From assembly GCF_014396785.1 (NCBI RefSeq), contig NZ_CP060718.1, positions 1,136,501 through 1,200,500 on the forward strand: a stretch of DNA of 64,000 nucleotides, read 5' to 3'. The notes under the pieces were generated by a model, which saw nothing but the letters and a program-made list of their open reading frames with translations, was not told where the DNA came from and made no database searches. Position 1 is the first letter of the stretch. Each line of letters starts with the position of its first letter. Below are positions 7,388 to 31,116 of this stretch, piece by piece. This stretch comes from Sphingomonas lutea (GTDB lineage: Bacteria > Pseudomonadota > Alphaproteobacteria > Sphingomonadales > Sphingomonadaceae). The position numbers and the translations under genes are program-made.

Positions 7388-7422
7388 GAGGCGTGGAGCC
7401 GCCGCGCAAGGTTGATGGTCAT
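7384..7422 (-). CDS. Possible 12-codon linker ORF between the Nudix and cca genes
   Basis: A minimal reading frame encoding MTINLARRLHAS. Its ATG overlaps the Nudix stop as ATGA, and its TGA overlaps the cca ATG as ATGA. This would allow termination-reinitiation coupling across the 31-base gap. It could instead be the true cca N-terminus put out of frame by one missing base, as seen elsewhere in this window. No ribosome-binding site can be assigned. Confidence 0.25.
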   Translation of the reverse strand: MTINLARRLHAS

Positions 7423-12560: not shown

Positions 12561-13915
12561 ATGACCGCTTCACGGAATTTCGCCGTCGTCATCCTGGCCG
12601 CGGGCAGGGCACGCGCATGCGATCCGATACGCATAAGGTTCTGCACCCGATTGCCAGCCGGCCCTTGCTGCTGCACCTGCTCGACCGCGTCGACGGTTTG
12701 GGTGCGGACAGGAAGATTGTCGTCGTCGGGAAGGGGCGCGAGCAGGTCGAAGCGGCGATCGCCGGCCACGGGGCGGAGATTGCCGTGCAAGCCGAGCAGC
12801 GAGGCACAGGCCACGCGGTTCAACAGGCGGCCAGTGCCCTTAAGGCTTACGAGGGTCCCGTCGTCATCCTTTATGGCGACACGCCGTTCGTGAAGGCGCA
12901 AACGCTGACGCGGATGCTCGATCGCCTCGACCAGGATGACCGGCCAGGTGTCGTCGTCCTGGCGTCGACTCCGCCCGATCCCCTGAAATACGGCCGGATC
13001 ATCCTCGGCGCAGGGGATCGCATCGCGAAGATGGTCGAGTTCAAGGATGCCAGCGAAGCCGAACGTGCGGTCCGCTTGTGCAATTCGGGCATGATGGCGG
13101 TACGCGGCGCGGACCTCTTCCGGTGGCTTGACCAAGTGGGGAACGACAATGCCGCGGGCGAATATTATCTGCCCGACATCGTCAATATCGCGGGGGACGA
13201 GGGGCACGCCGCCGTGGTCATCGAAGGCGATCCCTATGAGACCGCTGGCGTAAACAGCCGCGCCGAGCTCGCCCATCTCGAGCTCGAATGGCAGCGCCGC
13301 CGCCGCGAGCAGGTGCTCGAGGAAGGCGCGACACTGATCGATCCCGAAAGCGTCTGGTTTGCTTATGACACCAAGCTCGGCCGCGACGTGACGGTTGAAC
13401 CGCATGTCGTATTCGGGCCGGGCGTGAAGGTTGCCGACGGCGCGACGATCCACGCCTTCAGCCATATCGACGGCGCGTCGATCGGCGCGGGCGCAAGCAT
13501 TGGCCCGTTCGCCCGGATCCGCCCTGGAACGCGCCTCGCCGCGCGCACCAAGGTCGGCAATTTCGTCGAGCTTAAGAAGGCCAGCGTGGGCGAAGGCGCC
13601 AAGGTCAATCATTTGTCTTACGTCGGCGACGCCGAAGTGGGCGCAAAGGCCAACATCGGCGCGGGCACGATCACCTGCAATTACGACGGCTTCGGCAAGC
13701 ACCGCACCGTGATCGGCGCGGGCGCCTTCATCGGCTCCAACACTGCGCTGGTGGCGCCGGTCAACGTCGGCGACGGCGCGATCGTCGGGGCGGGATCGGT
13801 GATCACCGAAGATGTTGCCGCAGACAGCCTGGCGGTCGAACGCGCCGAACAGCGCGGCGTCGCCGGCTGGGCGAAGCGTTTTCGGGAGCGAATGACACGA
13901 AAGGCCACGCAATAG
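12561..13915 (+). CDS. glmU: Bifunctional UDP-N-acetylglucosamine pyrophosphorylase / GlcN-1-P acetyltransferase (GlmU), apparent frameshift near the start
   Basis: GlmU makes UDP-GlcNAc for peptidoglycan and lipid A. The N-terminal uridylyltransferase (about 1-225) begins at the ATG at 12561 (MTASRNFAVVILAAG), but the frame breaks at about 12606. The expected LAAGKGTRMRSDTHKVLHP is obtained only if one A is restored (GGCAGGGCACG to GGCAAGGGCACG). The rest, in the second frame, is intact: the GDTPFVK and VEFKDASEAE regions, then the left-handed beta-helix acetyltransferase (about 250-440) with NFVELKKA and NYDGFGKHRT. The reading frame is otherwise normal in length. As GlmU is normally essential, a missing base in the sequence is more likely than a dead gene. 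glmS follows after a toxin-antitoxin pair. Confidence 0.88.
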
Positions 13916-13916
13916 C

Positions 13917-13944
13917 TTGACGCGATATCATGATATGATATCGG
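13917..13944 (+). promoter_or_regulatory. Putative promoter of the toxin-antitoxin pair, possibly leaderless
   Basis: TTGACG at 13917-13922 (5 of 6 to the consensus -35) and TATCGG at 13939-13944 (a weak -10) are 16 bases apart. A start about 7 bases downstream would fall on the A of the antitoxin ATG at 13951, giving a leaderless transcript, and no ribosome-binding sequence is visible. The -35 box abuts the glmU stop codon. Confidence 0.35.
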
Positions 13945-13953
13945 TATATCATG
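13925..13953 (+). promoter_or_regulatory. Palindromic operator overlapping the antitoxin start
   Basis: ATATCATGATAT at 13925-13936 is a perfect 12-bp palindrome. The half-site ATATCATG at 13925-13932 recurs at 13946-13953, exactly 21 bases (two helical turns) away and covering the ATG. Repeated palindromic sites in this position are typical of autorepression by ribbon-helix-helix antitoxins and their toxin complexes. Confidence 0.65.
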
Positions 13954-14313
13954 ACTCGCATTCTCGTGGATTTGCCAGACGACGATATCGAATGGCTTGA
14001 TCGACTCGCGGCGGAGCAGGCAAAATCTCGGGCGTCGGTGCTGCGGGAGGCGGTTTCGGCTTACCGCGCCGACGCGCCCAAGGATTGGATCGACGCCGGC
14101 TTCGGCTTGTGGGCCCGGCACGGAATATCGATCGATCCTGCGACGTACGACCGGCAGCGTCGCGCGGAATGGACCCGGCCTTGGGACGACGATTATGAGG
14201 AAGTTCGCGCCGAATCCCCCGAAATGTTCACGGCGGAAGATGACCGCGAACGCGCGCATTATCTTGCCCTTGCCGCCAAGGCGGCCGGGCGGCGCAAGAA
14301 GTCCGCGGGATGA
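13951..14313 (+). CDS. Ribbon-helix-helix (CopG-like) antitoxin
   Basis: A 120-residue protein. Residues 2-45 match a ribbon-helix-helix DNA-binding fold: beta-strand TRILVDLP, then two helices DIEWLDRLAAEQ and SRASVLREAVSAY. Residues 46-120 are acidic then basic, with no family I recognise, and presumably neutralise the toxin. Its stop overlaps the start of the PIN gene by 4 bases, the classic antitoxin-first order. Both half-sites of a palindrome lie in its promoter and start codon, pointing to autoregulation. The pair sits between glmU and glmS, so it looks like an inserted module. Confidence 0.8.
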   Translation: MTRILVDLPDDDIEWLDRLAAEQAKSRASVLREAVSAYRADAPKDWIDAGFGLWARHGISIDPATYDRQRRAEWTRPWDDDYEEVRAESPEMFTAEDDRERAHYLALAAKAAGRRKKSAG

Positions 14314-14690
14314 GCGGATATAGCTTCGACGCCAACATCCTGATCGATGCGCTGATGGATCACCGTCCGGCGCATACCGAGATTCGCCGCGCGACGGAGA
14401 GCGGCGCCCAGGTGTGGTTGAGCCGAATGGCATGGATCGAGGTCATGTCGAAGGGCACGGATGACATGCTGCGGGAGGCGCTGCGTTTCCTCGGCCGCTT
14501 CGGGATCGATGAGATCGACGAGGAGACGTCTCAGCGCGCCGCAGCTTTGCGCCGCGAGCGGCCGCGCCTGAAAGCGCCTGACGCGCTCATTCTGGCGTCG
14601 GCGCAGGTGCGCGGACGTGTCCTAATCACTCGAAACGTACGCGACTTCCCAGCCGTGATGCCGGGAATTCGCGTTCCCTACACCCTCTAG
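14310..14690 (+). CDS. VapC-like PIN-domain toxin
   Basis: A 126-residue PIN-domain protein, the typical VapC length. The acidic residues of the metal site are visible: Asp7 in SFDANILIDAL, Glu44 in WIEVMSKG and Asp91 in KAPDALILASA. The late motif reads LITRNVRDF where many VapCs have an Asp before the last segment, which is a tolerated variation. VapC toxins are Mg-dependent RNases that cleave initiator tRNA, other tRNAs or rRNA. The upstream gene overlaps by 4 bases and would encode the antitoxin. glmS starts 14 bases after this stop, so its transcription may pass through this module. Confidence 0.85.
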   Translation: MSGYSFDANILIDALMDHRPAHTEIRRATESGAQVWLSRMAWIEVMSKGTDDMLREALRFLGRFGIDEIDEETSQRAAALRRERPRLKAPDALILASAQVRGRVLITRNVRDFPAVMPGIRVPYTL

Positions 14691-14704
14691 CAGGCGCTCT
14701 TGTC

Positions 14705-16524
<1,820 letters not shown>

Positions 16525-16528
<4 letters not shown>

Positions 16529-17249
16529 AGCATATCGGCATCCTCGCCCACAGCTTCGAGGGTGCGGGCCTGTGTTTCCGCACCGCGTGCCTGGCGGGTG
16601 TCGAGCGCCTGGGCGCGCACATGCACCCCGAGATCAGCATGACCTGCAGTCCGATGGCGCTGGCGATGCCGGCGTGGGAAAGCGGGGATCACGCGCCGTT
16701 GCGGACGATGTTCGGCAGCGAAGCGGCCAAGCTTGCGGCGGCGGGCGCCGACTTCTTCGTCTGTCCCGACAATACGGCGCATATCGCGCTGGAGCAGGAC
16801 GGCGCGCCGTTCGCCATTCCCGCACTGCATATTGGCGAAGTCGTTGCCGAGGAGGCGCGGCGGCAGGGCTTCGCCAAGGTCGGGATCCTGGGCACCAAAT
16901 ATACGATGACCGGCCCGGTCTATCCCGCTGCCTTGGCGCGGCGCGGGATTGGCTACGCCGTGCCGTCGGGGGTGACCGAACCTTGGTCAACGACATCATC
17001 TTCGACGAATTGTGTCTTGGCCAATTCACCGACGAGGCGCGCAGCACCTATTGCGACATCATCGGCAAGTTGGCGGAGGAAGGGTGCGACTCGGTCGCGC
17101 TGGTGTGCACCGAAATCCCGCTGTTGATCACGCCCGACGTGTCGCCGCTGCCAACGCTCGATTCGACGCGGCTGCTCGCCCGCGCGGCGGTCGATGTGGC
17201 CCTGGGCGATGCGACCATGCCGATGTGGCGCGGAGGCCTGCCGAGCTAG
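16525..17249 (+). CDS. Aspartate/glutamate racemase family protein, apparent frameshift
   Basis: An Asp/Glu racemase-family protein starting at the ATG at 16525 (MKHIGILAHSFEG), overlapping glmS by 4 bases. The first catalytic cysteine region (FFVCPDNTAH) lies in the first frame. After GVTE at about 16980 the frame is lost, and homology resumes in another frame as LVNDIIFDELCLGQF. The second catalytic cysteine region (LVCTEIPLLI) lies there, ending at 17249. One extra base, for example CCC instead of CC at 16981, would join them into about 241 residues. As written, the two catalytic cysteines are on separate pieces. The protein could supply D-amino acids for the wall, but the substrate is unknown. 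Confidence 0.8.
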
Positions 17250-18157
17250 GCCGCGGCGGCAGTTCGCGTCGCCTCAAGCTGCTGCACATGGCGGCTGAGG
17301 CGTTCGTAGAGGAAATCGATCACTGTGCGCACGCGTGGCGTGTGACGCACGCGTTCATGGGTGAAGAGCCACAGGACTCGCTCGTGATCGTGGCGCGGCG
17401 CCATGCAACGGATCAGGTCGGGATCGGCATCGGCGACGACGCAGGGCAGGACGGCGATGCCGAAGCCTGCGCGGACACCCGACAGCAGCCCGCCGGACGT
17501 CGCGTGATGCATCGCCACCTGCTGCTCCAGCCCCAACGCCTGGAGCCAGGCCTGGTAGTGGATCCACAAATTGCCGCCGCCGCCACCGATAAAGGAGTGC
17601 GATCGCAACTCCTCGATCGTCGTCGGCACGCCGTGGCGCTCGCCATAAGCGCGACTGCAATAAAGCGCCCAATCGTCGATGCACAGCCGCCGCCCGACCA
17701 GTCCGGCCGGTTGCGCCATCGCGGTGCTGCGGAGCGAAACGTCCGCTTCGCCGGCACCAAGATCGCGGACCTTCTGCGACGTGTCGAGTTCGATCACGAT
17801 GTCGGGGAAGCGTTGGTGCAATTCGGTCAGCAGCGGCGTAAGCAAAGTGATGGCGTAAATTTCCTCGGTCGTGATCTTGACCGTGCCGCGCACTGCGCGC
17901 GCCTGCCCCGAGGCCGCGCCGGCAAAGTCGTCGATGGCCTGTTCGACCGCCCCCGCCTTGGCCAGCAATTCCTCGCCCGCGGGGGTCAGCGCGTAGCCCG
18001 CCTGCCGCTTCTCGAAGAGAGGGAAGCCGAGCGCCTGTTCGAGCGCGGCGATGCGCCGCGCCACGGTCGTCTGGCTGGTGCGCAGCGCCCGGCCCGCGCG
18101 CAGGGTACTGCCTTCACGCGCGACCGCGAGGAAGTAGCGGAGGTCGTCCCAATCCAT
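17246..18157 (-). CDS. LysR-family transcriptional regulator
   Basis: A 303-residue LysR regulator. The helix-turn-helix spans about 1-60 (MDWDDLRYFLAVAREGS, then RALRTSQTTVARRIAALEQ) and the effector domain about 90-295. The HTH variant with MDWDDLRYFL is typical of a LysR subgroup common in sphingomonads. I chose the ATG at 18157, which has AAGG 6-9 bases upstream; 18178 (MELGQGL) is an alternative. A perfect 22-bp palindrome just upstream is a probable autoregulatory site. The neighbouring divergent gene encodes a UrcA-family protein, a possible target. Its 3' end overlaps the end of the racemase gene by 4 bases. Confidence 0.88.
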   Translation of the reverse strand: MDWDDLRYFLAVAREGSTLRAGRALRTSQTTVARRIAALEQALGFPLFEKRQAGYALTPAGEELLAKAGAVEQAIDDFAGAASGQARAVRGTVKITTEEIYAITLLTPLLTELHQRFPDIVIELDTSQKVRDLGAGEADVSLRSTAMAQPAGLVGRRLCIDDWALYCSRAYGERHGVPTTIEELRSHSFIGGGGGNLWIHYQAWLQALGLEQQVAMHHATSGGLLSGVRAGFGIAVLPCVVADADPDLIRCMAPRHDHERVLWLFTHERVRHTPRVRTVIDFLYERLSRHVQQLEATRTAAAA

Positions 18158-18190
18158 CAGGCCTTGCCCTAGCTCCATTTTGCCGGTGCA

Positions 18191-18212
18191 GGTTCTGCAA
18201 ATTTGCAGAACC
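18191..18212. promoter_or_regulatory. Perfect 22-bp palindrome, probable LysR operator
   Basis: The half-site GGTTCTGCAAA and its exact reverse complement form an uninterrupted 22-bp palindrome, 34 bases upstream of the LysR start and 79 upstream of UrcA. It contains the T-N11-A dyad expected of LysR sites. A second, smaller perfect palindrome, CTTACGTAAG, is at 18230-18239. Confidence 0.7.
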
Positions 18213-18290
18213 ATAGCACGACATCGTGGCTTACGTAAGTTGCATTTCAGGACTAATTGGACGGTCGCACTCGGAACAGGGAGACGCGAC

Positions 18291-18626
18291 ATGAAGGCCA
18301 TTCACATCATCATCGCTTCGGCGCTCATTACGGCGACCGCACTCAAGGCCGTCCCGGCTTTGGCCGACCCCGTTGCCGACGATGTCGCGGTCAGCTTCGT
18401 GCGGACTGCTGACCTCGACCTCAACAGCCCGGTGGGGCAGCGCCAGCTCGACCGCCGCCTGGTCACTGCCGCGCGGGAGGTTTGCGGAAGCGTGTCGTCC
18501 GCCGACCTCGAAGGCCGCAACGCGGTGCGGTCCTGCGTCGATACGGCGCTTGCCAAGGCGCGCAGCGATGGCGCGCAAATGGCGTCGGCGCAGCGCGACA
18601 TCATCGCCGTCACCGCCGCGCGCTAG
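18291..18626 (+). CDS. UrcA family exported protein
   Basis: A 111-residue protein of the UrcA family, whose function is unknown. Residues 1-25 are a signal peptide (MKAIHIIIASALITATAL, cleavage near ALA-DP). The mature domain shows the family pattern VSFVRTADLDLNSPVGQRQL followed by AAREVCGSVSS and RSCVDTALAKA, with two conserved cysteines that could form a disulfide. It is probably periplasmic. A GGGAG ribosome-binding sequence precedes the ATG. It is divergent from a LysR gene with a palindromic operator, and a stem-loop follows its stop. Confidence 0.83.
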   Translation: MKAIHIIIASALITATALKAVPALADPVADDVAVSFVRTADLDLNSPVGQRQLDRRLVTAAREVCGSVSSADLEGRNAVRSCVDTALAKARSDGAQMASAQRDIIAVTAAR

Positions 18627-18644
18627 ACGTTACGATCTCTCCCA

Positions 18645-18676
18645 GAAGGGCGTCGTCAGCGGTGACGGCGCCCTTC
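18645..18676 (+). terminator. Hairpin terminator after the UrcA gene
   Basis: A 14-bp stem from GAAGGGCGTCGTCA (18645-18658) and TGACGGCGCCCTTC (18663-18676), with one wobble and the loop GCGG. Only a short T-containing tail (GCTTG) follows, so termination may be inefficient. Confidence 0.55.
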
Positions 18677-18713
18677 GCTTGTGCGCGTCGCGGCGCTTGA
18701 TTAGGCCAAGGCG

Positions 18714-19088
18714 ATGGAAGTCACCGGCGGCTGTCATTGCGGTGCGGTCCGCTTCACGGCGACCCTGCCGGAGGCGCCGGTTCCTGCGTTGGACTGCAAT
18801 TGTTCGGTGTGCCGGATGACGGGCTTCCTGCACATTGTCGTACCGCATGAGGACTTCGAGCTCCTGACCGGACGTGACTCGCTCGCCAGCTATCGCTTCG
18901 GCAGCGGTACTGCCGAGCATCTGTTCTGCCGTATTTGCGGAGTGAAGAGCTTCTACCAGCCGCGCAGCCACCCTGATGCCTGGAGCGTGAATGCGCATTG
19001 TCTGGACGCGCCGCCGGCCCTGGCGATCGAACCGTTCGACGGGCGCAATTGGGAAGCGGCAAAGGCCAACCTCGACGCACAGGACTAG
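18714..19088 (+). CDS. GFA family protein (glutathione-dependent formaldehyde-activating fold)
   Basis: A 124-residue single-domain protein of the GFA/CENP-V zinc fold. The zinc-binding cysteines are visible in GGCHCGAVRF (residues 5-14), DCNCSVCRMTG (about 36-46) and HLFCRICGVKSF. Members include Gfa, which binds glutathione and formaldehyde, but most small homologues have no proven role, so a detoxification function is only suggested. It starts 38 bases after the UrcA hairpin and ends 20 bases before alr on the same strand. Confidence 0.86.
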   Translation: MEVTGGCHCGAVRFTATLPEAPVPALDCNCSVCRMTGFLHIVVPHEDFELLTGRDSLASYRFGSGTAEHLFCRICGVKSFYQPRSHPDAWSVNAHCLDAPPALAIEPFDGRNWEAAKANLDAQD

Positions 19089-19108
19089 CGCGGTTACGGC
19101 AGTCGCCG

Positions 19109-20137
19109 ATGCACCATAATCTGCGCCTGACCGTCGACCGATCGGCACTGACCGCCAATTACCGCTGGCTCGCCGAGCGCGCGGGCGTTCCTGCTGGCGC
19201 GGCGATCAAGGCCAACGGCTATGGCCTCGGCGCGCGCGAGGCCGCGCAGACGCTGTACAAAGCCGGTTGCCGCGACTTCTTCGTCTCGACCTGGGCAGAA
19301 GCCGAGGCACTTGGCCCGTTCCCGATCGGCAGCAGCCTGGTGGTCCTTCACGGCGTCGGGCCGAAGGACATGAAAGCGGCGCTGGCGTCGACCGCGCGGC
19401 CCGTGCTCAACACCGCCGAACAGGTCGCCCGCTGGAAGGACAGCGCGCGCGACCGGCCGTGCGACGTGATGGTCGACACCGGCATGAACCGCCTCGGGCT
19501 GAGGCCGGACGAACTGGCGTCGCTCGACGGCCTGACGATCGAGACGCTGCATAGCCATCTTGCCTGCGGCGACGAGGATCATGCGATGAACCGGGCGCAG
19601 CTCGACCGCTTCCGTGGCATTGCGGCGGAGGTGCCTGCGAAGCGCTACAGCCTCGCCAATTCGGCCGGGATCTGCCTTGGCCGCGACTTCAGCTTCGACC
19701 TCGTTCGCCCCGGGCTCGCGCTCTACGGCGGCGTGCCGCGCGAGGAGGCGGAGGGAAATATCCGCAGCGTCATCCGCGTCGATGCAGAGATCGTGCAGCG
19801 GCGCACGATCCGCGCGGGTGAAAGCTGCGGCTATGGCGCGACCTTCGTTGCGCCGGCCGACACCGAGGCGGCGATCGTGAACATCGGTTATGCCGACGGC
19901 TATTTGCGCGGCTTCTCGTCGCGCGGATCGGCGTTTGCGAAGGAATTCGCGCTGCCGGTCATCGGCCGCGTGTCGATGGATCTGATCGCCGTGGATTGCG
20001 ATGCGGTGCCGTCGCTCAAGGAAGGCGACTGGCTGGAGATCGACTACGACTTGCCGAGCGCGTCACGCCAGTCCGGGCTTTCGCAATACGAGCTTTTGAC
20101 GGCGCTGGGCGCGCGCTTCGAGCGGCTTTGGGTCTAG
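19109..20137 (+). CDS. alr: Alanine racemase
   Basis: A 342-residue PLP enzyme interconverting L- and D-alanine for peptidoglycan. The PLP lysine is at residue 34 in AAIKANGYGLG. The active-site tyrosine is in CGYGATF, and the C-terminal beta-domain includes GRVSMDLIAVD. The ATG at 19109 (MHHNLRL) gives the usual length; the longer frame to 18998 overlaps the GFA gene and lacks homology. The stop at 20135-20137 lies inside the convergent nth reading frame, which runs 122 bases into alr as written. Confidence 0.94.
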   Translation: MHHNLRLTVDRSALTANYRWLAERAGVPAGAAIKANGYGLGAREAAQTLYKAGCRDFFVSTWAEAEALGPFPIGSSLVVLHGVGPKDMKAALASTARPVLNTAEQVARWKDSARDRPCDVMVDTGMNRLGLRPDELASLDGLTIETLHSHLACGDEDHAMNRAQLDRFRGIAAEVPAKRYSLANSAGICLGRDFSFDLVRPGLALYGGVPREEAEGNIRSVIRVDAEIVQRRTIRAGESCGYGATFVAPADTEAAIVNIGYADGYLRGFSSRGSAFAKEFALPVIGRVSMDLIAVDCDAVPSLKEGDWLEIDYDLPSASRQSGLSQYELLTALGARFERLWV

Positions 20138-20777
20138 CCTCGGGCGCCCGGGTCTTGGGCTGGTAACGGCACAGGTCCGCGACCGGGCAGCGCCAGCATT
20201 CTGGCAGCCGCGCCTTGCATGTGTAGCGGCCGTGCAGGATCAGCCAGTGATGCGCGTCGCGGCGGAACGGCTGGGGCACGATCTTCTCGAGCCTGGCCTC
20301 GACCGCTTCGACGGTCTTGCCGGGCGCGAGGCCGGTGCGGTTCGACACGCGAAAAACGTGCGTATCAACCGCGAACGTTTCCTCCCCAAAGGCGGTGTTG
20401 AGCACGACATTGGCGGTCTTGCGCCCGACGCCGGGCAGCGCCTGCAGTTCGTCGCGGGTCCGCGGAACCGCGCTGCCGTGGTCGCGGATCAGCGCCTGCG
20501 ACAAAGCGATGACGTTCTTGGCCTTGGTGTTGAACAGGCCGATCGTCTTGATCGCCTCGCGCAGGTTCTCCTCGCCAAGTTCCACCATCTGCTCGGGCGT
20601 GTGGATGCGGGCGAAGAGCGGGCGGGTTGCGATGTTGACGCCGGCATCGGTCGCTTGCGCCGACATCACCACGGCGACGAGCAATTGGTACGGATTGTTC
20701 GATTCAAGCTCGGTCTGCGGCGACGGGTTTGCCTCGGCCAGCCGCCGGAAGAATTCGAAAATCTGGTCGCGGGTCAC
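20016..20777 (-). CDS. nth: Endonuclease III
   Basis: A 253-residue base-excision repair glycosylase/AP lyase acting on oxidised pyrimidines. It shows the helix-hairpin-helix LPGVGRKTANVVLN with the catalytic Lys, the catalytic Asp in FAVDTHVFRVSNR, and the [4Fe-4S] cluster as C-x6-C-x2-C-x5-C (CKARLPECWRCPVADLC). Homology ends near residue 215. The following basic, Arg/Ala/Ser-rich stretch of about 40 residues overlaps the convergent alr gene. One extra G near 20140 would put a TAG in frame at 20134-20136 and remove the tail, so it may be an artefact. The GTG start overlaps the dapB stop by 4 bases. Confidence 0.9.
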   Translation of the reverse strand: MTRDQIFEFFRRLAEANPSPQTELESNNPYQLLVAVVMSAQATDAGVNIATRPLFARIHTPEQMVELGEENLREAIKTIGLFNTKAKNVIALSQALIRDHGSAVPRTRDELQALPGVGRKTANVVLNTAFGEETFAVDTHVFRVSNRTGLAPGKTVEAVEARLEKIVPQPFRRDAHHWLILHGRYTCKARLPECWRCPVADLCRYQPKTRAPEARPKAARSARPAPSKARIAKARTGVTRSASRSRSPASRLP

Positions 20778-21484
20778 AGCGCCGACACGACATCCCGCAT
20801 GGAATAGAGCCCGGCCGGCTTGCTCGCGAGGAAGCGTGCCGCGGCCAGCGCGCCGCGCGCGAAGATCATGCGACTTTCGGCGCGGTGCGACAGGATGATC
20901 CGCTCTTCCGGGCCGAGGAACAGTACGTCGTGATCGCCCGCAACGGTGCCCCCGCGCAGCGCGGCATAGCCGATCGCGCCGACTGCCCGCTCGAGTCCGG
21001 TCCCGTCGCGGCCGCGTTCGGCCTTGACCTGACCGCCACGCCCGCGCGCTGCCGCATCGCCGAGCAGGAGCGCGGTGCCCGATGGGGCGTCGGCCTTGTG
21101 ACGATGGTGCGTCTCGGCGATCTCGATATCCCAGTCGGGTCCAAGGACTCGGGCGGCGCGCTCGACCAGATCGGCGAGCAGCGCAACGCCGAGCGAGGTG
21201 TTGGACGCGCGCAGCACCGCCACGCTCTTGGCCGCTTCCGCGAGCTGGGCGTCCGCGTCTGGGCCAAGGCCCGTGGTGCCGACGAGGATCGGGACGCCTG
21301 CAGACGTTGCCCGATCGAGGCTGTCCTGAAGTGCATTCGGCACCGAAAAATCGATCAGCACGTCGCCGCTGTCGCTGCTGAGCGCGAACCCGGTATCGTC
21401 GGCAATGGCGGCGGCGATCGCCTTCCCCATGCGGCCGTCGGGCGCGAACAGGGTGATGCGGATCGGCTGATCGGCGGTGCGCAT
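20774..21484 (-). CDS. dapB: 4-hydroxy-tetrahydrodipicolinate reductase
   Basis: A 236-residue NAD(P)H-dependent reductase of lysine and diaminopimelate synthesis. The N-terminal Rossmann motif is shortened to FAPDGRMGKAIA, the substrate loop is HHRHKADAPSGTALLLG, and VGTTGLGPDA plus SNTSLGVALLADL match the family. The start at 21484 (MRTADQPIRIT) is 11 bases from the DUF72 stop; the longer frame to 21595 overlaps that gene. Products feed peptidoglycan (meso-DAP). Co-directed with nth and translationally coupled to it by a 4-base overlap. Confidence 0.93.
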   Translation of the reverse strand: MRTADQPIRITLFAPDGRMGKAIAAAIADDTGFALSSDSGDVLIDFSVPNALQDSLDRATSAGVPILVGTTGLGPDADAQLAEAAKSVAVLRASNTSLGVALLADLVERAARVLGPDWDIEIAETHHRHKADAPSGTALLLGDAAARGRGGQVKAERGRDGTGLERAVGAIGYAALRGGTVAGDHDVLFLGPEERIILSHRAESRMIFARGALAAARFLASKPAGLYSMRDVVSAL

Positions 21485-21495
21485 AGGCAAGCGGC

Positions 21496-22242
21496 TTAGC
21501 GAAGCCGTTCCTGCAGGGCCAGCGCTGCGGCGGGCGCCCGCACCTTGGCGCCGTTGATGAAAAAGACGTAGGCGTCGCGGCCGGCGGCCTGCCACGCCCG
21601 CGCCTGCTCGGCGAAGCCGTCGAGCGCGGCATCATCGTACCCCGTGACGACTTCCTCGCGCATGCGCTGGAGGCGGGCGTAGCGGAAGCTCGCGGTGTCG
21701 ACGTCGATCGTCGGATAGACGTCCGAATCCTCGAGCACGACCGCGATGTCGCGCGCGCGGCAGAGATCGAAGAATGCCTCGTCGTCGAAGCTGGCGTGGC
21801 GCGGCTCGAACGCGTGGCGCAGTTTGAGATCGCCGATCTGGTCGGGGATCAGGTCGATGAACGCGGCAATGTCGTCGCGGTCGAAGGTCTTGCGCGGCCC
21901 AAACTGCCACAGGATGGGGCCGAGCTTGGGCCCAAGCACCTCGAACCCCTGGCCCAAGAAATTGGCGATGCTTTCGCCGCCCTCGGCAAGTTTGGAGCGG
22001 CTGACGCAGTAGCGCGAGGCCTTGATCGCGAACTGGAAGCCGTCGGGCGCGGCATTGCCCCATTTCTCCCAGCTTTTCGCGCTTTGCCGCCCGTAGAAGG
22101 TGGCGTTGATCTCGATCGCGCCAAGGTGGCTTACGGCATAATCAAGCTCCTTCGCCTGCGGATGCTTGTCGGGATAGAAGACGCCGCGCCAGGGCGGGAA
22201 GGTCCAGCCGCCGATCCCGGCGCGAATGGTTGCGTCGCTCAT
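21496..22242 (-). CDS. DUF72 domain-containing protein
   Basis: A 248-residue protein of the DUF72 (YecE) family, which has a TIM-barrel-like fold and no established activity. Family motifs are GIGGWTFPPWRGVFYP near the start, then EINATFYGRQSAKSW and KASRY. Further on, RHAFEPRHASF and the C-terminal YVFFINGAKVRAP match the pattern. No signal peptide is present. Start chosen at 22242 (MSDATIRAG), 24 bases from the divergent cobB. It heads the DUF72-dapB-nth run. Confidence 0.86.
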   Translation of the reverse strand: MSDATIRAGIGGWTFPPWRGVFYPDKHPQAKELDYAVSHLGAIEINATFYGRQSAKSWEKWGNAAPDGFQFAIKASRYCVSRSKLAEGGESIANFLGQGFEVLGPKLGPILWQFGPRKTFDRDDIAAFIDLIPDQIGDLKLRHAFEPRHASFDDEAFFDLCRARDIAVVLEDSDVYPTIDVDTASFRYARLQRMREEVVTGYDDAALDGFAEQARAWQAAGRDAYVFFINGAKVRAPAAALALQERLR

Positions 22243-22266
22243 GCCTTGCGGCTCTATGCTGTCGTC

Positions 22267-22998
22267 ATGGAGGTGCGCAACATTGTCATCCTGACGGGCG
22301 CCGGCGTGTCCGCCGAAAGCGGGCTTGCCACCTTCCGCGGGCCCGACGGCCTGTGGGAGGGGCATCGCGTCGAGGATGTGTGCACGCCCGAGGCGTTCGC
22401 CCGCGATCCGGCGCTGGTGCATCAATTCTACGACGCCCGCCGCGCGCGGCTAGCGGAGGTGGAGCCCAACTCCGCCCATCACGCGCTCGCACGCCTCGAC
22501 GCCGAATGGCCGGGCGAGCTTCTGCTGGTCACGCAGAATGTCGACGACCTCCACGAGCGCGCGGGATCGGCGCGGCTGATTCACATGCATGGCGAGCTGA
22601 CGAGCGGCTGGTGCCTAGCGTGCAACAATCGCTTCCCGTGGGCCGGAGAGATGAACGCAAGCTCGTCCTGCCCGACCTGCACCGCGCCGGGCATGGTTCG
22701 GCCCGACATCGTCTGGTTCGGCGAGATGCCCTACGCGATGGAACGGATCGAAGAGGCGCTGCAGCGCTGCGACCTGTTCGTGTCGATCGGAACGTCAGGC
22801 GCGGTTTACCCCGCCGCGGGCTTCGTCCAGACCGCGCGCTACCGCGGTGCGCGGACGCTGGAGATGAACCTGGAGCCGAGCCAGGGCAGCTACTTTTTTC
22901 ACGAAAGCCGGATCGGCCGCGCGGGCATCCTCGTGCCCGCATGGGTCGACGAGATGCTCGCCGCTCAGTCTGCCCAATCGAGGCCGATGCCCTCGTAG
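22267..22998 (+). CDS. cobB: NAD-dependent protein deacylase of the SIR2 family (CobB)
   Basis: A 243-residue sirtuin that removes acyl groups from protein lysines using NAD+. It has the NAD-binding GAGVSAESGLATFRG, TQNVDDLHERAG, and the catalytic His in HMHGEL. A zinc ribbon with four cysteines follows (CLACNN and SCPTC), and SIGTSGAVYPAAGF closes the site. The residues Tyr/Arg that mark desuccinylases appear in the FYDARRARL segment, so class III (CobB-type, desuccinylase/deacetylase) is likely. The stop lies 34 bases inside the convergent era gene. Confidence 0.92.
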   Translation: MEVRNIVILTGAGVSAESGLATFRGPDGLWEGHRVEDVCTPEAFARDPALVHQFYDARRARLAEVEPNSAHHALARLDAEWPGELLLVTQNVDDLHERAGSARLIHMHGELTSGWCLACNNRFPWAGEMNASSSCPTCTAPGMVRPDIVWFGEMPYAMERIEEALQRCDLFVSIGTSGAVYPAAGFVQTARYRGARTLEMNLEPSQGSYFFHESRIGRAGILVPAWVDEMLAAQSAQSRPMPS

Positions 22999-23866
22999 AG
23001 TCCACGGTCCTCGCTCCAGCGGGGGGCGACCTTGACGTGGAGGTAGAGGTGCACCGGATGCCCGAGGTGCGCGGCGATTTCCCCGCGCGCGGCTTCGCCG
23101 ATCGCCTTGAGCCGCGATCCGCCCTTGCCGATGACGATGCCTTTCTGGCTGTCGCGCTCGATCAGCACCTGCGCCATGATCTCGGTCGATCCGTCGGACC
23201 GTTCGCTCCATTTTTCGATCTCGACCGCGGAGGCGTACGGCAGCTCCTGATGAAGCTGGAGGAAGATTTGCTCACGCACCAGCTCGGCCGCGACCATGCG
23301 GTCGGTCGCGTTGGACACTTCGTCTTCGGGATAGAGCCACGGACCTTCAGGCACGGCCGCGGCAAGTGCCGTCTTGACGTCATCGACCCCGTCGCCGGTC
23401 AGCGCGCTGATCATGAACAGCTGCTGGGGGCAATGGCGTCGGTAATCTGTTGCGCTAGGCCGAGCAGCTTGCCCTTGTCCGCGCGATCCACCTTGTTGAG
23501 CGCGACCATGACGGGCGACTTGCGCCCCTGCAGCCCGTCCACGATCCGCTCGACGCCGGCGCGCATGCCCGCCTCGGCGTCGATCACGAGAAGGGTCAGT
23601 TCGGCGTCCTCGGCCCCGGTCCAGGCGGCGGCGACCATCGCCCGGTCGAGCCGTCGCTTCGGCTCGAAGATGCCGGGCGTGTCGACCAGCAGGATCTGCG
23701 CGCGGTCGTGGATGGCAATCCCCATCAGCCGCGCGCGCGTGGTCTGCGCCTTGGGGCTGACGATCGCGACCTTCTGCCCGACCAGCGCATTGACCAGTGT
23801 CGACTTGCCGGCGTTGGGCGCACCGATCACGGCCACGAAGCCGGCGCGGGTGCCGTCTTCGCTCAT
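22965..23866 (-). CDS. era: GTPase Era, apparent frameshift between G and KH domains
   Basis: Era binds 16S rRNA and is needed for 30S ribosome assembly. The G domain is intact in the first frame: GAPNAGKST (G1), DTPGIF (G3) and NKVD (G4), residues 1-145. At a run of five G on the plus strand (23426-23430) the frame shifts. A sixth base restores ITDAIAPQQLFMISALTGDG and joins the KH RNA-binding domain (IVIGKGGSRLKAIGE), giving about 300 residues like E. coli Era. Because Era is normally essential, a homopolymer miscall is the best explanation. The start overlaps the rnc stop by 4 bases. Confidence 0.9.
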
Positions 23867-24528
23867 TGCAACTGCGCCAGCAGTGCGGTGGCGGCTTCCT
23901 TTTCGGCTTCCTGCTTGCTTGCACCTTGCGCACTCGCTTCACCCAGGCCGGGGACGCGGACCTGGACGGTGAACAACGGCGCGTGGTGCGGGCCGGTGCG
24001 CGACACGAGCGCATATTCGGGCGGCTTGCACCCGCGCGCGGCGGCCAGTTCCTGAAGGCCTGACTTGGGATGTTGCGGCGCGCGGCCCTGGCCGGCGAGC
24101 AGTTCGCCCCACGCGTCGAGAATGAAGGCCTGCGCCACGTCGAGCCCGCCGTCTAGCCATAGCGCGCCGATCAAAGCCTCGACCACGTCGCCGATGACAT
24201 TGTCGCTGCGGTTGGCATGGTCTTCGCGCGCCTGACGGCCGAGCCGGATGAGCGGCGGAAGCCCGATCGCGCGGCCAACTTCGGCGCAGGTTTCGCGCGC
24301 GACGAGGGCGTTGTAGCGGCGCGACAGCTTGCCTTCCGGCTCGTCGGGATAGCGCTCGTACAAGGCGCGGGCGATGACCACGCCGAGCACCCGATCGCCG
24401 AGGAATTCAAGGCGTTCGTAGCTTTCACCGCCCACGCTCGAATGGGTCAGCGCCATGTCGAACAAATGTTTGTCGCGCGGCTGGTGGCCGAGCGCGTCGC
24501 GAATGAACCCGGCTACATCGTCCTTCAT
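23863..24528 (-). CDS. rnc: Ribonuclease III
   Basis: A 221-residue dsRNA endonuclease that processes rRNA precursors and structured mRNAs. The catalytic signature ERLEFLGDRVLGVVIA is at about 40-55, the second acidic pair lies in GDVVEALIGALWLDGG (about 115-130), and a dsRNA-binding domain occupies about 150-221. Length is typical. It lies between lepB and era, with 4-base overlaps on both sides, the conserved lepB-rnc-era order of proteobacteria. Confidence 0.95.
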   Translation of the reverse strand: MKDDVAGFIRDALGHQPRDKHLFDMALTHSSVGGESYERLEFLGDRVLGVVIARALYERYPDEPEGKLSRRYNALVARETCAEVGRAIGLPPLIRLGRQAREDHANRSDNVIGDVVEALIGALWLDGGLDVAQAFILDAWGELLAGQGRAPQHPKSGLQELAAARGCKPPEYALVSRTGPHHAPLFTVQVRVPGLGEASAQGASKQEAEKEAATALLAQLQ

Positions 24529-25376
24529 TGCCGGCCGTCCACATAACCATTGCCGATGCGGTCCCAGCGGAGCGCAGTGAACCAAGTCCACGGCAGGACA
24601 TAGGAGGCGCTGCCGTCGGTCGACCAGAACGTCACCATCGCCCGGCCGATCAGATGATCGAGGGGGACCAGGGCAATCCCGCCCTCGGCGCTCGAAAAGC
24701 GACTGTCGAGGCTGTCGTCGCGATTGTCGCCCATCAGGAACACATGGCCCGCGGGGACGGTGACGGGCCCGAAGTCGTCGGCAGGGCCGCCGCTCACCTG
24801 GTCGAGCACCGTATAGGACGGTCCGCCCGGCAATGTTTCGCGGTAGGCGCGATAGCTGCACATGATCTGGTCGCCAGCCTGGGCGAGTTGGGGCGCAGCC
24901 GGCGGGACGGTTTTGCACGGGGTGTTGGGGCTGACGGGCATGCGCGCGGGCGCGATCGGCACTTGGGCGAGGGCACGACCGTTCAGAATAGCGCGGCCGC
25001 CGCTCACTGCGATCGTGTCGCCGGGTACGGCGATGACTCGCTTGATGAGGTCGGCGGGATCGGTCGGGTGGCGGAAGACCACGACGTCGCCGCGCTTCGG
25101 CGTGCCTTCGAGAACGCGCCCATCGAAGCTCGGAATGCCGAACGGGAAGCTGACGCTGGCATAGCCGTAGGGCCATTTCGCGACCATCAGATAGTCGCCG
25201 ATGTAGAGCGTCGGCAGCATCGACCCCGACGGGATGCTGAATGGCGCGAAGAGGAAGCTGCGCACCGCCCAGGCGAGCAGTGCGAGCCCCAGGACGAAGC
25301 GTACGGTGCCCCAGGTTCCGCCGTCATCCCCGCTCGAGGTGTCAGGCTTGGAGCGGCGGGTGAAGGCCTTAAGCAT
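24525..25376 (-). CDS. lepB: Signal peptidase I
   Basis: A 283-residue inner-membrane peptidase that removes signal peptides from exported proteins. One membrane helix (about 25-45) precedes the catalytic Ser in FSIPSGSMLPTLYIGDYL. The catalytic Lys is in ADLIKRVIAVPGD, and GDNRDDSLDSR is the third family box. An insertion of about 50 residues between boxes D and E (NTPCKTVPPAAP, IMCSYRAYRE) contains two cysteines, common in alphaproteobacterial enzymes. I chose the ATG at 25376 (MLKAFTRRSKP); the longer frame adds residues with no homology. First gene of the lepB-rnc-era run. Confidence 0.94.
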   Translation of the reverse strand: MLKAFTRRSKPDTSSGDDGGTWGTVRFVLGLALLAWAVRSFLFAPFSIPSGSMLPTLYIGDYLMVAKWPYGYASVSFPFGIPSFDGRVLEGTPKRGDVVVFRHPTDPADLIKRVIAVPGDTIAVSGGRAILNGRALAQVPIAPARMPVSPNTPCKTVPPAAPQLAQAGDQIMCSYRAYRETLPGGPSYTVLDQVSGGPADDFGPVTVPAGHVFLMGDNRDDSLDSRFSSAEGGIALVPLDHLIGRAMVTFWSTDGSASYVLPWTWFTALRWDRIGNGYVDGRQ

Positions 25377-25458
25377 GTGCGCGCGCTTCTTCTCGCCCGC
25401 TCGCCTCAGGTCAAGCCGGGGTGGCATTTGCCGGGGCGCCGTTTATGTGGCTGGCGCA

Positions 25459-26946
25459 ATGGATGAGCATCGGCAGCAAGGCGGCACGCAAAGGCTCGAC
25501 GAGCTGTTCAGGGCCGAGCCTGACCGGCTGAGCCGCCTGACGTTCGAAGTTGCCGGCGTCTATTTCGACTGGTCGAAAACGCACCTCGACCGAGCGACGA
25601 TTGAGCGCTTCGAGGACCGCGCCGAAGCTGCGGGCGTCGCGAAGGCGCGCGATGCTTTGTTTGCCGGGGACATCGTCAATCCCAGCGAGGGCCGCGCCGC
25701 GACTCATGTCGCCGAGCGTGGAAGCGGCGCGGCGGGCGATAATGCCGAGGCCGCCGCGCGGCGAGGGCGTGTGCGCGCGCTGGTCGACGCGATCGAGGGC
25801 GGCGCATTCGGCGATATCACCGGAGTGCTGCACATCGGTATTGGTGGATCGGTCCTCGGGCCCGCGTTGCTCACCGACGCGCTGGGCCGGAGCCGCTCGC
25901 GGATCGATGTCAGCTTTCTTTCCAACATTGACGGCGGCGCCTTTGAAGAAGCTACCGACATGCTCGACCCGGTGACGACCCTGATCGTCGTGGCGTCGAA
26001 GACGATGACCACGGCGGAGACGCTGGCCAACTATGGCGCGGCGCTCGACTGGCTGCGTGACGCCGGCGTCGAGGACCCGCACGGACGGGTGATCGCGGTC
26101 ACCGCCAAGCCCGAAGCTGCGGTTGCAGCCGGGATCGACGAAACCCGCGTGCTCGTCTTCGGGGAGGGCGTCGGCGGCCGCTACTCGCTGTGGAGCGCGG
26201 TCGGCGTATCGGCTGCGCTGGCGCTGGGTTGGGATGCGTTCGAAGAGCTTCTCGAAGGCGCGGCTGAGATGGACCGGCACTTTCGCTTCGCCGCCCCGGC
26301 GGAAAACGTGCCCCTGATCGCCGCCTTCGCCGACCGGCTTTATGCCGAGGAGTATGGTTGCGGGACGCGCGCCGTCTTTCCCTATGACGAGCGTTTGCGG
26401 CTGCTGCCCTTCTACCTTCAGCAACTCGAGATGGAATCGAACGGCAAGTCGGTGCGGATCGACGGGTCGGCGGTGACCGCGCCGAGCGCGCCGGTCACGT
26501 GGGGCGGGACGGGGACCGATGCGCAGCATGCAGTGTTCCAGTTGCTCCATCAGGGCACGGCGATCGTGCCGGTTGAATTTGTAACGGTTCGCGAGGGCGA
26601 GGACAGCCAGAGCCCCGAGCACCGCCGCGCGCTTCTCCTCAACGCCATCGGCCAGGCGGCGGCCTTGATGCACGGCAAGGCGAGCGACGATCCGCAGCGG
26701 GCCTATGCCGGCAACCGGCCCAGTGCGACCATCCTGCTGTCCCAGCTCGACCCGCGTTCGCTGGGGGCGCTGCTGGCCTTCTACGAGCACCGCACCTTCG
26801 CCAATGCCGCGCTGCTCGGAATTAACCCGTTCGATCAATGGGGCGTGGAATTGGGCAAGCAGATCGCGGGCAAGCTGGCCGATGGCACGAGCGAAGAGAA
26901 GCTTGACGCCTCCACGCTCGCACTCATGGAACGAGCGGGGCTCTGA
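25459..26946 (+). CDS. pgi: Glucose-6-phosphate isomerase
   Basis: A 495-residue enzyme interconverting glucose-6-P and fructose-6-P. Both family signatures are present: GEGVGGRYSLWSAVG (about 235) and GINPFDQWGVELGKQ (about 455), with the active-site Glu and His/Lys regions in between. SIS-type sugar-binding folds cover the chain. The ATG at 25459 (MDEHRQQGG) was chosen because the frame upstream is antisense to lepB. Its stop overlaps the gor start by one base. Sphingomonads use the Entner-Doudoroff pathway, where Pgi recycles fructose-6-P. Confidence 0.95.
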   Translation: MDEHRQQGGTQRLDELFRAEPDRLSRLTFEVAGVYFDWSKTHLDRATIERFEDRAEAAGVAKARDALFAGDIVNPSEGRAATHVAERGSGAAGDNAEAAARRGRVRALVDAIEGGAFGDITGVLHIGIGGSVLGPALLTDALGRSRSRIDVSFLSNIDGGAFEEATDMLDPVTTLIVVASKTMTTAETLANYGAALDWLRDAGVEDPHGRVIAVTAKPEAAVAAGIDETRVLVFGEGVGGRYSLWSAVGVSAALALGWDAFEELLEGAAEMDRHFRFAAPAENVPLIAAFADRLYAEEYGCGTRAVFPYDERLRLLPFYLQQLEMESNGKSVRIDGSAVTAPSAPVTWGGTGTDAQHAVFQLLHQGTAIVPVEFVTVREGEDSQSPEHRRALLLNAIGQAAALMHGKASDDPQRAYAGNRPSATILLSQLDPRSLGALLAFYEHRTFANAALLGINPFDQWGVELGKQIAGKLADGTSEEKLDASTLALMERAGL

Positions 26947-28286
26947 TGGCGGATTTCGACCTGTTCGTGATTGGCGCCGGGTCGGGCGGCGTCCGCGCGT
27001 CGCGCGTGTCCGCCGCTTATGGCGCGCGCGTCGGCATCGCCGAGGAGCATAAGATCGGCGGCACCTGCGTCATCCGCGGCTGCGTGCCCAAGAAGTTGCT
27101 CGTCTACGGGGCGCACTTTGCCGAGGATTTGAACGACGCGGCGATGTTTGGCTGGGACATTCCCAACTGCCGCTTCGACTGGCCCGTCCTGCGCGACAAT
27201 GTCCTGGCCGAGGTCGGGCGGCTCGAGGGCGCCTATGCCGACACGCTGACCAACCATAAGGTCGAAATCTTCCGCGAACGCGCGGTGCTGACCGGGCCCA
27301 ATTCGGTCCAGCTCGCCGGTGGGCGGACGATCACCGCAGACAAGATCCTCATCGCCACCGGCGCGCGCCCGCTGATGCCCGATATTGAGGGCATCGAGCA
27401 TGCGATCAGTTCGAACGAGGTCTTCCACCTTGACAAGCTGCCCGAGCGAATCGTGATCGTCGGCGGTGGCTACATCGCCAATGAATTCGCCGGCATCTTC
27501 CTCGAATTCGGAACGCAGGTCACGTTGGTCAACCGCACCGACGTGCTGCTGCGCCATTACGACCAGCAGATCGTCGACCGTCTGATTCAGATCTCCGTGA
27601 AAAAGGGCATCAGCTTCGAATTCAACACCCGCATCGACCGAATCGCGCGGCTCGACAGCGGGCGTCTGCAGATATCGATGACCGGCTGCGACGACATGGA
27701 AGCGGATCAATTGCTGTTCGCGGTCGGGCGCCGGCCCAATATCGAGGGCATTGGGCTCGACGCGGCGGGCGTCGAGCTGGGTGAGAACGGCCAGATCAAG
27801 GTCGACGACGACAATCGCACCAACGTCGGGTCGATCTTCGCCGTCGGCGACGTCACCGATCGCGTCCAGCTCACCCCCGTCGCGATCCGCGAAGGCCAAG
27901 CCTTCGCCGACACCTTCTTCGGCAAGAAGCCGTGCCGGGTCGATTACGGTTGCATCCCCTCGGCAGTGTTCAGCCATCCGCCGCTCGCCGCGGTGGGCAT
28001 GACCGAGGGCGAAGCGCGCAACCGGCTGGGCAGCGTCAAGACCTACGTCTCGGACTTTCGCCCGATGAAGAACGTGCTGGCGGGGCGCAACGAGCGCTCG
28101 CTGTACAAGATGGTGGTCGACGAAAGCACCGACGAGGTGGTCGGCATGCACATGATCGGTCCCGATGCGCCCGAAATTTTGCAAGCGGCGGCGGTGGCGG
28201 TGAAGGCCAAGCTCAAGAAGGCCGACTTCGACGCGACCGTGGCGCTTCATCCGACGATGGCCGAAGAATTGGTTTTGATGCGATAA
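26946..28286 (+). CDS. gor: Glutathione-disulfide reductase
   Basis: A 446-residue FAD flavoenzyme reducing GSSG with NADPH. FAD-binding GAGSGG is at 10-15. The redox-active disulfide is GGTCVIRGCVPKK (Cys41 and Cys46). The NADPH Rossmann motif IVGGGYIANEFAG is at about 170, and the catalytic His is in ALHPTMAEELV near the C-terminus. The gene overlaps pgi by one base, so the two are co-translated. A link between NADPH metabolism and redox defence is plausible. gshB at 44.3 kb supplies the glutathione. Confidence 0.94.
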   Translation: MADFDLFVIGAGSGGVRASRVSAAYGARVGIAEEHKIGGTCVIRGCVPKKLLVYGAHFAEDLNDAAMFGWDIPNCRFDWPVLRDNVLAEVGRLEGAYADTLTNHKVEIFRERAVLTGPNSVQLAGGRTITADKILIATGARPLMPDIEGIEHAISSNEVFHLDKLPERIVIVGGGYIANEFAGIFLEFGTQVTLVNRTDVLLRHYDQQIVDRLIQISVKKGISFEFNTRIDRIARLDSGRLQISMTGCDDMEADQLLFAVGRRPNIEGIGLDAAGVELGENGQIKVDDDNRTNVGSIFAVGDVTDRVQLTPVAIREGQAFADTFFGKKPCRVDYGCIPSAVFSHPPLAAVGMTEGEARNRLGSVKTYVSDFRPMKNVLAGRNERSLYKMVVDESTDEVVGMHMIGPDAPEILQAAAVAVKAKLKKADFDATVALHPTMAEELVLMR

Positions 28287-28328
28287 TCCCGTCCGCTCGA
28301 CACGAACGGTGAGGGAATCAGCAAGCTA

Positions 28329-29921
28329 GTGGGGACGTACTTGCACGACGCGGTGATCATTGGCGCCGGCCACAACGGCCTGACCTGCGCTTATTACCTT
28401 GCGCGCAAGGGTCTTAAGGTCGCCATCCTCGAAGCGGGGCCGGTCGTCGGCGGCGCGGCGGTTACGGACGAATTCCTGCCGGGTTTTCGCAATAGCGCGG
28501 CGAGCTACACGGTCAGCCTGCTCAACCCCAAGGTCATTGCCGACATGCAGCTCGAACGGCACGGGCTGAAGGTCGTGCTGCGCAAGACCGACAACTTCCT
28601 GCCGGGCCACGGCGATTATCTTTTGTCCGGGCGTGGCGGCCTGACGCGCAAGGAGATTGCGCGCCATTCGAAGGCCGATGCCGCGGGATATGACCGCTAC
28701 ATCGCCGATCTCGATGTCGTCGTCCGACTGCTCAAGAAGTGGCTACTCCAGGCGCCGCCCAATGTCGGCACGAAGCTAAGCGCGCTGCCAAAGTTGCTCG
28801 GCCTTGGGCGCGACATGGCCGGGCTGTCGCTCGAAGAGACGCGAATCGTGCACGATTTCGCGCTGCGCAGCGCGTCCGAATTGCTCGACCGCTATTTCGA
28901 AAGCGACATCGTCAAGGCACTGTTCGCGTTCGACGGGATCGTCGGCAACTTCGCCTCGCCCCATTCGTCCGGAACGGCCTACGTCCTGCTCCACCATCTG
29001 TTCGGGGAGGCGGCGGGGGTGCCGGGTGCATGGGGCCATGCGATCGGCGGCATGGGGTCGATCACTCAGGCCATGGCCAAGGCGTGCCGCGAGGCGGGCG
29101 TCGACATCCTGCTCAACACGCCGGTCGAAGAGGTGATCGTCACCAACGGCCGCGCCGCGGGCGTCGTTGCCGACGGCAAGGCGTGGCGCGCCACGTCGGT
29201 GGTGGCGGGCGTCAATCCGCGCCTGTTGTTCGATCGGCTCGTGCCCGGCGGGGCGGTCGATGCCAAGGTCGCGGCGCGCATGGCGGGGTGGAAATGCGAA
29301 AGCGCGACCTTCCGCATGAATGTCGCCTTGTCCGAACTGCCGCGCTTCACCGTCCTGCCCAAGCGCGGCAATCACCTGACCGCGGGCATCATCATGGCGC
29401 CGAGCATGGCCTACATGCACCGCGCCTACCTCGACGCGGAAACTCACGGCTGGTCGAAGCAGCCGGTGATCGAGATGCTCATCCCCTCGACGCTCGACCC
29501 AAGCCTCGCCCCCAAGGGCAAGCATGTCGCGAGCCTGTTCTGCCAGCATTTCCGCTACGACTTAGGTCCGGGGCGAAGCTGGGATGATGAGCGCGAAAAA
29601 GCCGCCGACACTGTCATCGCCACGGTCGAAGCGCACGCGCCGGGCTTCGCCAAGTCGGTGATCGGGCGGCAGATCCATTCGCCGCTCGACCTCGAACGGC
29701 GTTTCGGGCTGATCGGGGGCGACATCTTCCACGGCAAGATGGGGCTCGACCAATTGTTCAGCGCGCGGCCGATGCTCGGCGCCGCCGACTATCGGATGCC
29801 GCTCAAGGGATTGTACCTGTGCGGGTCGGGCGCGCATCCCGGTGGCGGTGTGACCGGCGCGCCAGGACATAATGCGGCGCGCGCGGTGCTTGCCGACCGC
29901 CGTTTCTGGAAACGCCGATGA
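28329..29921 (+). CDS. FAD-dependent oxidoreductase, PYROXD2/phytoene desaturase-like
   Basis: A 530-residue flavoprotein of the amine-oxidase/phytoene-desaturase superfamily. The dinucleotide-binding motif IIGAGHNGLTCAYYLARKG is at 8-26, followed by GGAAVTDEFLPGF. The C-terminal FAD motif is GLYLCGSGAHPGGGVTGAPG. Similarity is closest to the PYROXD2 group rather than CrtI. Substrates are not established, and a carotenoid role should not be assumed, since no other crt gene is in the window. The GTG at 28329 is the likely start; a TTG 12 bases later is an alternative. It overlaps the CoA-transferase start by 4 bases. Confidence 0.82.
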   Translation: MGTYLHDAVIIGAGHNGLTCAYYLARKGLKVAILEAGPVVGGAAVTDEFLPGFRNSAASYTVSLLNPKVIADMQLERHGLKVVLRKTDNFLPGHGDYLLSGRGGLTRKEIARHSKADAAGYDRYIADLDVVVRLLKKWLLQAPPNVGTKLSALPKLLGLGRDMAGLSLEETRIVHDFALRSASELLDRYFESDIVKALFAFDGIVGNFASPHSSGTAYVLLHHLFGEAAGVPGAWGHAIGGMGSITQAMAKACREAGVDILLNTPVEEVIVTNGRAAGVVADGKAWRATSVVAGVNPRLLFDRLVPGGAVDAKVAARMAGWKCESATFRMNVALSELPRFTVLPKRGNHLTAGIIMAPSMAYMHRAYLDAETHGWSKQPVIEMLIPSTLDPSLAPKGKHVASLFCQHFRYDLGPGRSWDDEREKAADTVIATVEAHAPGFAKSVIGRQIHSPLDLERRFGLIGGDIFHGKMGLDQLFSARPMLGAADYRMPLKGLYLCGSGAHPGGGVTGAPGHNAARAVLADRRFWKRR

Positions 29922-31116
29922 AGGCGCCGCTCGCTGGCATCAAGGTGCTCGACCTCAGCCGCGTGCTCGCCGGGCCGTGGTGCACCCAATTGCTCGCCGA
30001 CCTCGGTGCCGATGTGATCAAGATCGAGCGGCCGGGGGCGGGGGACGACACGCGTCACTGGGGCCCGCCATGGCATGGGCAGGGCGACCGGCGCGTCGCG
30101 GCCTATTTCCTCAGCGCCAACCGCGGCAAGAGATCGGCGGCGATCGATTTCGCCCAACCCCAGGGCGCGGCGCTGGTGCGGCAGCTTGCGGCGCAGTGCG
30201 ATGTCGTGGTCGAGAATTTCCGCGTCGGCGGACTCGCAAAGTTCGGCCTCGATGCCACGAGCTTACGCGGCGGCCACCCACGGCTGATCTACGCCTCGAT
30301 CACCGGCTTCGGCCAGGACGGGCCTTATGCCGACCGCGCGGGCTACGACTTCATCATCCAGGGCATGGGCGGGATGATGAGCGTAACTGGGCTTCCCGAC
30401 GATGCGCCGGGGGGCGGGCCGCTACGCGCCGGGGTCGCGATCGCCGATCTGTTCACCGGCATGTACACGTGCACCGCGATCCTTGCCGCGCTCTACAGGC
30501 GGGAGAAGAGCGGGGAAGGCGCTACGATCGACATGGCGTTGTTCGACACGCAGATCGCGGTCATGGCCAACCAGGCATCGAACGCGCTCGTGTCGGGCAA
30601 GGACCCGCCGCGCCAGGGCAACACCCACCCCAATATCGTGCCCTATCAACCGTTCGACGCCGCCGATCAGCCGATCATCATCGCCGTCGGCAACGACCGG
30701 CAGTTTGCGCGGCTGGCCGACATTTGCGGCCATCCCGAATGGACCGCCGATGCGCGCTTCGCGAGCAACGCTGCGCGCGTTGCCAATCGCAACGTGATCG
30801 TGGCGCTGGTCAGCGAGGTGATTGCGCAAAAGTCCGCGGCGGAGTGGCTCGATCAGCTTAAGCGTGCGGGCATTCCTGCAGGCCCGATCAACCGCATCGG
30901 CCAGGCCCTGACCGACGTCCAGGCACAGCACCGCGCCATGGTGCGCACAATCGCGGGGATGCCGCTGGTCGGCTCACCGGTGCGCATGGACGGCGTGCGC
31001 GCCGACGCGGAACTTCCGCCCCCGCGCTTGGCGAGCATAGCGACGAGATCCTTGCGGCGATGGGGATCGCGCCGGGCGACATAGCGCGGCTGCGATCCAC
31101 CGGGATCGTTGGCTAG
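29918..31116 (+). CDS. CaiB/BaiF class III CoA-transferase family protein, apparent C-terminal frameshift
   Basis: A class III CoA-transferase, about 399 residues when read through. It begins MKAPLAGIKVLDLSRVLAG, has GADVIKIERPGAGDDTR, NRGKRSAAIDF and ENFRVGGLAKFG, and the DMALFDTQIAVM region with the catalytic Asp. Near the end the frame at 31028-31031 (CTTGGC) diverges, giving the ending SLRRWGSRRAT and a stop at 31084. One extra G gives RLGEHSDEILAAMGIAPGD and a stop at 31116, the normal family end. Class III enzymes transfer CoA between organic acids; the acid is unknown. Co-directed and overlapping with the flavoprotein. Confidence 0.87.

Follow-up and report, generated by a model that had tools for sequence, protein, structure and literature searches.

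The reading frame of five genes in the window (the whole 64 kb stretch of DNA that was analysed) is interrupted by the apparent loss of one base in each gene. It is very probable, at roughly 95% as judged from sequence comparisons, that these breaks are consensus errors, in which single bases were lost by the assembler or the polisher, often at runs of G or C. The pattern is a known signature of long-read consensus error. The genome is a single contig, is 98.8% complete and has a GC content of about 65%. Its GlmU has its nearest named relatives mostly in Sphingomonas or among unnamed Pseudomonadota, and some proteins near those of the window carry the label Sphingomicrobium. No sign of a pathogen was noticed. 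The positions of the features are collected in Table 1.

Table 1. Analysed stretch, interrupted genes (positions within the window) and further frame breaks (positions on the contig).
Feature	Position	Strand	Frame break and remarks
Analysed stretch	contig bases 1,136,501-1,200,500		one contig of 2,417,654 bases, sphingomonad genome
NUDIX CoA pyrophosphatase	7388..7964 (end approximate)	-	-1 at about 7433, near the C-terminus, adjoining a C5 run
glmU	12561..13915	+	-1 at about 12600-12605, adjoining a G3 run
Asp/Glu/hydantoin racemase family gene	16525..17249	+	-1 within about 16965-16982, adjoining a G5 run
era	22965..23866	-	-1 at about 23425-23431, adjoining a G5 run (+ strand letters)
Family III CoA-transferase	29918..31116	+	-1 at about 31021-31025, adjoining a C5 run
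Further breaks, same contig	about 1476797, 2186875, 2190276, 2195456, 2196612 and (weak) 2300663		basis: G022 alone

The genes of the window were aligned, with frame changes allowed, to those of four relatives with conserved synteny (G022, G007, G015 and G023). A fifth, G004, was fetched and left out, as only four of its genes matched the window. All four relatives alike call a -1 change at 7433, 12600, 23425-31 and 31025, that is, in the NUDIX, glmU, era and CoA-transferase genes. The sequence-only reading had placed single-base deletions at about 12606 in glmU, at 23426-23430 in era and at about 31030 in the CoA-transferase gene, and each of these is found as a -1 break on which the four relatives concur. 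Comparison with the assemblies of close relatives, which that reading had proposed as a check, finds the orthologues unbroken and places the -1 in this genome. The NUDIX break is of the same type as the others and lies outside the section 12561..31116. In glmU, the first 15 codons share the frame of the start ATG at 12561, whereas the last 437 residues are encoded in a different one. The GTPase domain and the KH domain of Era are encoded in two different frames, while the last 31 residues of the CoA-transferase are shifted into a second frame that stops at 31116.

It is important to compare these genes with nearly identical proteins from other contigs. The protein database holds intact Era, GlmU and CoA-transferase, each on two contigs, of which the longest has 2,416,785 bases (2,417,654 here); the same database also lists the broken GlmU and CoA-transferase of the present contig. 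Every residue of the three intact proteins is found exactly in the window, the prefix in one frame and the suffix in another: Era P0005 (300 residues) as 147 + 154, GlmU P0126 (451 residues) as 15 + 437 and CoA-transferase P0245 (399 residues) as 369 + 31, where each sum equals the length of the protein plus one residue counted twice. Since all residues are matched across the two frames, the versions differ, at the protein level, by the break alone. The match with P0005 narrows the era break to 23426-23429, and the matches with P0126 and P0245 put the glmU break at 12602-12605 and the CoA-transferase break at 31021-31024. For three of the five window genes (era, glmU and the CoA-transferase gene) the break is thus absent from the near-identical contigs. 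The near-identical contigs are probably other assemblies of the same organism, as their identity and closeness in base count suggest, although their whole genes may not be independent evidence if the same reads and a protein-guided correction of frames lie behind them. The present contig exceeds two sister contigs by 869 and 1,057 bases, although its breaks are losses. An overlap of the contig ends was sought as the source of the extra bases, and the ends do not overlap; the assemblies must therefore differ in further ways. On a third near-identical contig (2,416,597 bases) a GlmU of 416 residues, P0127, has a later start, equivalent to 12668 in the window; this points to a distinct fault close to that 5' end.

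Both era and glmU are normally essential. A search of 71 genomes of the genus, this one included, gave 70 genomes with a match to era and 69 with a match to glmU. The era gene is unsplit in 68 of the 70 and split only in this genome and G010, and glmU is unsplit in 65 of the 69 and split in this genome, G010, G060 and G081. Within the genome itself a second copy was sought for both genes, and only the broken one was found (at E 1e-25 for era and E 1e-20 for glmU). The CoA-transferase gene is split in G064 too.

The racemase gene was assessed in a somewhat different way. A relative of it was not found in the syntenic 80-kb regions of G022, G007, G015 and G023, while a search of the 71 genomes of the genus gave strong relatives (E below 1e-40) in 15 besides this one. 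The Pfam profile Asp_Glu_race is matched at positions 55-139 in one frame and at positions 150-211 in another. The gene is continuous in one frame in 10 of the 11 relatives' loci fetched through the genus search, and the deletion of the sequence-only reading, at about 16981, corresponds to this -1 break. The racemase gene of G010 at first resembled the same break and is actually broken about ten codons away.

The comparison was extended to the rest of the genome with G022, using 134 genes, of which 53 belong to the window and the other 81 to 20 stretches sampled elsewhere. Alignments spanning less than three quarters of the query, five in number, were kept. Breaks were filtered by a flank of at least 8 codons and a flank identity of 0.40. 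A frame change was found in 11 of the 134 genes. One of them, a -1 change in the gene of signal peptidase I at about 25306, passed the flank filter with G022 alone, while G015 and G023 gave no event, and it was left uncounted. The ten breaks kept include two graded as weak: the one at 31025, with a flank identity of 0.38 against 0.40, was retained owing to the residue match with intact P0245, and the one at 2300663, with seven codons of flank where eight are needed, was retained with reservation. Four of the ten fall in 49 kb of the window and six in 82 kb elsewhere (130.8 kb compared in all). The rates show no difference between the window and the rest of the genome, and the window is therefore not special. 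The breaks had been described from the sequence as being of a shared type and spread along the contig, and this extends beyond the window: the six outside breaks, which affect among others a PBP1A-family gene and an M48-like protease, are distributed over the assembly, with four of them clustered within about 10 kb. The reverse comparison, in which 126 of this genome's genes were aligned to G022, showed 11 frame changes on the G022 side; four of these mirror breaks in this genome, and the remainder are taken as start-site, gene-end or paired shifts.

The ten kept breaks and the racemase break give 11 sites, ten of which are -1 and one of which is -2, equivalent in frame to +1. A run of at least 5 lies within 6 nt of 5 of the 11 sites as compared with 2.2% of random sites, and a run of at least 4 within 6 nt of 7 of the 11 as compared with 12%, for a control of 20,000 sites in the sampled genome and a run test picked after the sites were known. 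Four of the five window sites adjoin G5 or C5 runs. At the other end, 4 of the 11 sites adjoin runs of only 2 to 3, among them glmU, where the longest run up to 6 nt away is G3. The earlier statement that the losses lie mostly in short homopolymers is in agreement with G5 in the racemase gene, G5 in era and C5 in the CoA-transferase gene, and with just G3 in glmU. In a census of runs against the relatives, G/C runs of at least 5 are not clearly depleted in this assembly.

The signs of gene decay were considered as well. Across the 134 genes, 43,616 aligned codons contain not one in-frame stop; this count leaves out the first and last three aligned codons and comes from an alignment that penalises stops. 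All 32 segments of the four genes that have orthologues give a dN/dS of 0.10-0.65; they were taken from both sides of the break in sixteen gene-relative pairs. Relaxed selection over whole genes had been named beforehand as evidence that would speak against error, and the values below 1 on both sides of the four breaks do not show it. However, dN/dS in the CoA-transferase gene is higher behind the break than before it with all four relatives (0.26 as compared with 0.12 for G022), and in the NUDIX gene with two of four, in tails of only 13-29 codons where the values are noisy and dS is high. This weaker constraint leans the other way, against the reading as error; the ends of genes are often less constrained. 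Apart from this caveat for the CoA-transferase tail, neither relaxed selection over the gene, nor nonsense mutations, nor an additional copy of either essential gene was seen.

The sequenced strain might carry the losses as true recent frameshift mutations, i.e. as young pseudogenes. The pieces of the genes are otherwise well preserved, as such mutations would leave them, and short G/C runs, which slip naturally, are sites of natural slippage too. This explanation is nevertheless very unlikely, as it would place losses in two usually essential genes for which a second copy was not found, while near-identical proteins are whole on other contigs. A decaying genome would also not be expected to show about ten breaks in 131 kb of compared sequence and not a single in-frame stop.

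That the database has these proteins in both an intact and a broken form could be accounted for by a mixed population, in which core genes often slip at their short G/C runs, whole and broken alleles coexist and the consensus took the slipped allele. Phase-variable tracts are usually longer than the runs of 3 to 5 seen here; cells that lost a base in an essential gene would not survive, and the affected sites are many. A mixed population is thus more improbable still. Programmed -1 ribosomal frameshifting or transcriptional slippage, by which the proteins would be restored, could be considered from the fact that every break in the window is -1 and that runs of 5 adjoin four of the five. But each of these proteins occupies a single frame in the relatives, so that the frame change is not conserved, the near-identical contigs carry three of the genes in one frame, and five unrelated genes are hit in 64 kb. 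This explanation is hardly credible.

Consensus error is favored by the lack of the breaks in the near-identical contigs, by the bias to losses and to G/C runs and by the occurrence across the contig. The effect on essential genes for which a second copy was not found, the lack of nonsense mutations and the selection that is still visible argue for it as well. The preference for base-calling or assembly error over gene decay, expressed in the sequence-only reading, is supported by the intact near-identical proteins, the like breaks elsewhere, the lack of in-frame stops and the failure to find a second era or glmU. Three observations fit the error reading poorly: the contig is longer than its sisters, long runs are not clearly depleted, and at 4 of the 11 sites the longest run is no more than 3. 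In the proposed course of events, an otherwise good single-contig assembly was very probably made from long reads with too little polishing, presumably on a platform of the homopolymer-limited long-read type. The breaks in the racemase and NUDIX genes would share the cause of the other three, the reads would be expected not to support the breaks, and all five interrupted genes of the window are most likely whole in the organism itself.

Similar faults are described in available excerpts of earlier reports. Nanopore consensus sequences retain homopolymer indels that lead to frameshifts (PMC9262707). Bacterial and metagenome assemblies from long reads of the nanopore type, as they appear in the excerpts (PMC9262707, PMC12007338), resemble the present one in single-base losses that are often at G/C runs, in a highly contiguous assembly and in gene calls that are broken into still recognisable pieces. 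A difference from the homopolymer errors described in those excerpts is that the runs at 4 of the 11 sites here are just 2 to 3 bases long. In the excerpted account of the Pseudomonas veronii Pvy nanopore genome (PMC8022969), interrupted ORFs are likewise ascribed to sequencing indels, many of them in homopolymers; 2562 potentially interrupted ORFs are given there after polishing, whereas the sequence compared here has a break about every 13 kb.

The breaks are thus very probably an artefact and not a real feature, with low biological interest, and their significance is one of data quality only. By extrapolation from ten breaks in 130.8 kb, the whole genome may hold about 185 of them. Counts of pseudogenes and claims of gene absence in the genus need checking for such breaks. 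Split genes of a like kind were seen in G007, G010, G060, G064 and G081.

The number of window genes with a frame change is 7 of 42 against G007, 1 of 35 against G015 and 2 of 33 against G023. Window events at 25490, 29049, 43546 and 57500 were seen with G007 only and none was counted; the last three mirror breaks in G007 itself, and 25490 is close to a gene start. The assembly of G007 appears to have the same problem. Among five of its sites inspected (loci L105-L108), three adjoin G5 or C5 runs and two adjoin runs of 2 or 3. A fifth case had also been suspected in nth (20016-20777, minus strand; HhH-GPD), which proved to be unbroken: its long C-terminal tail ends in the same residues in G022.
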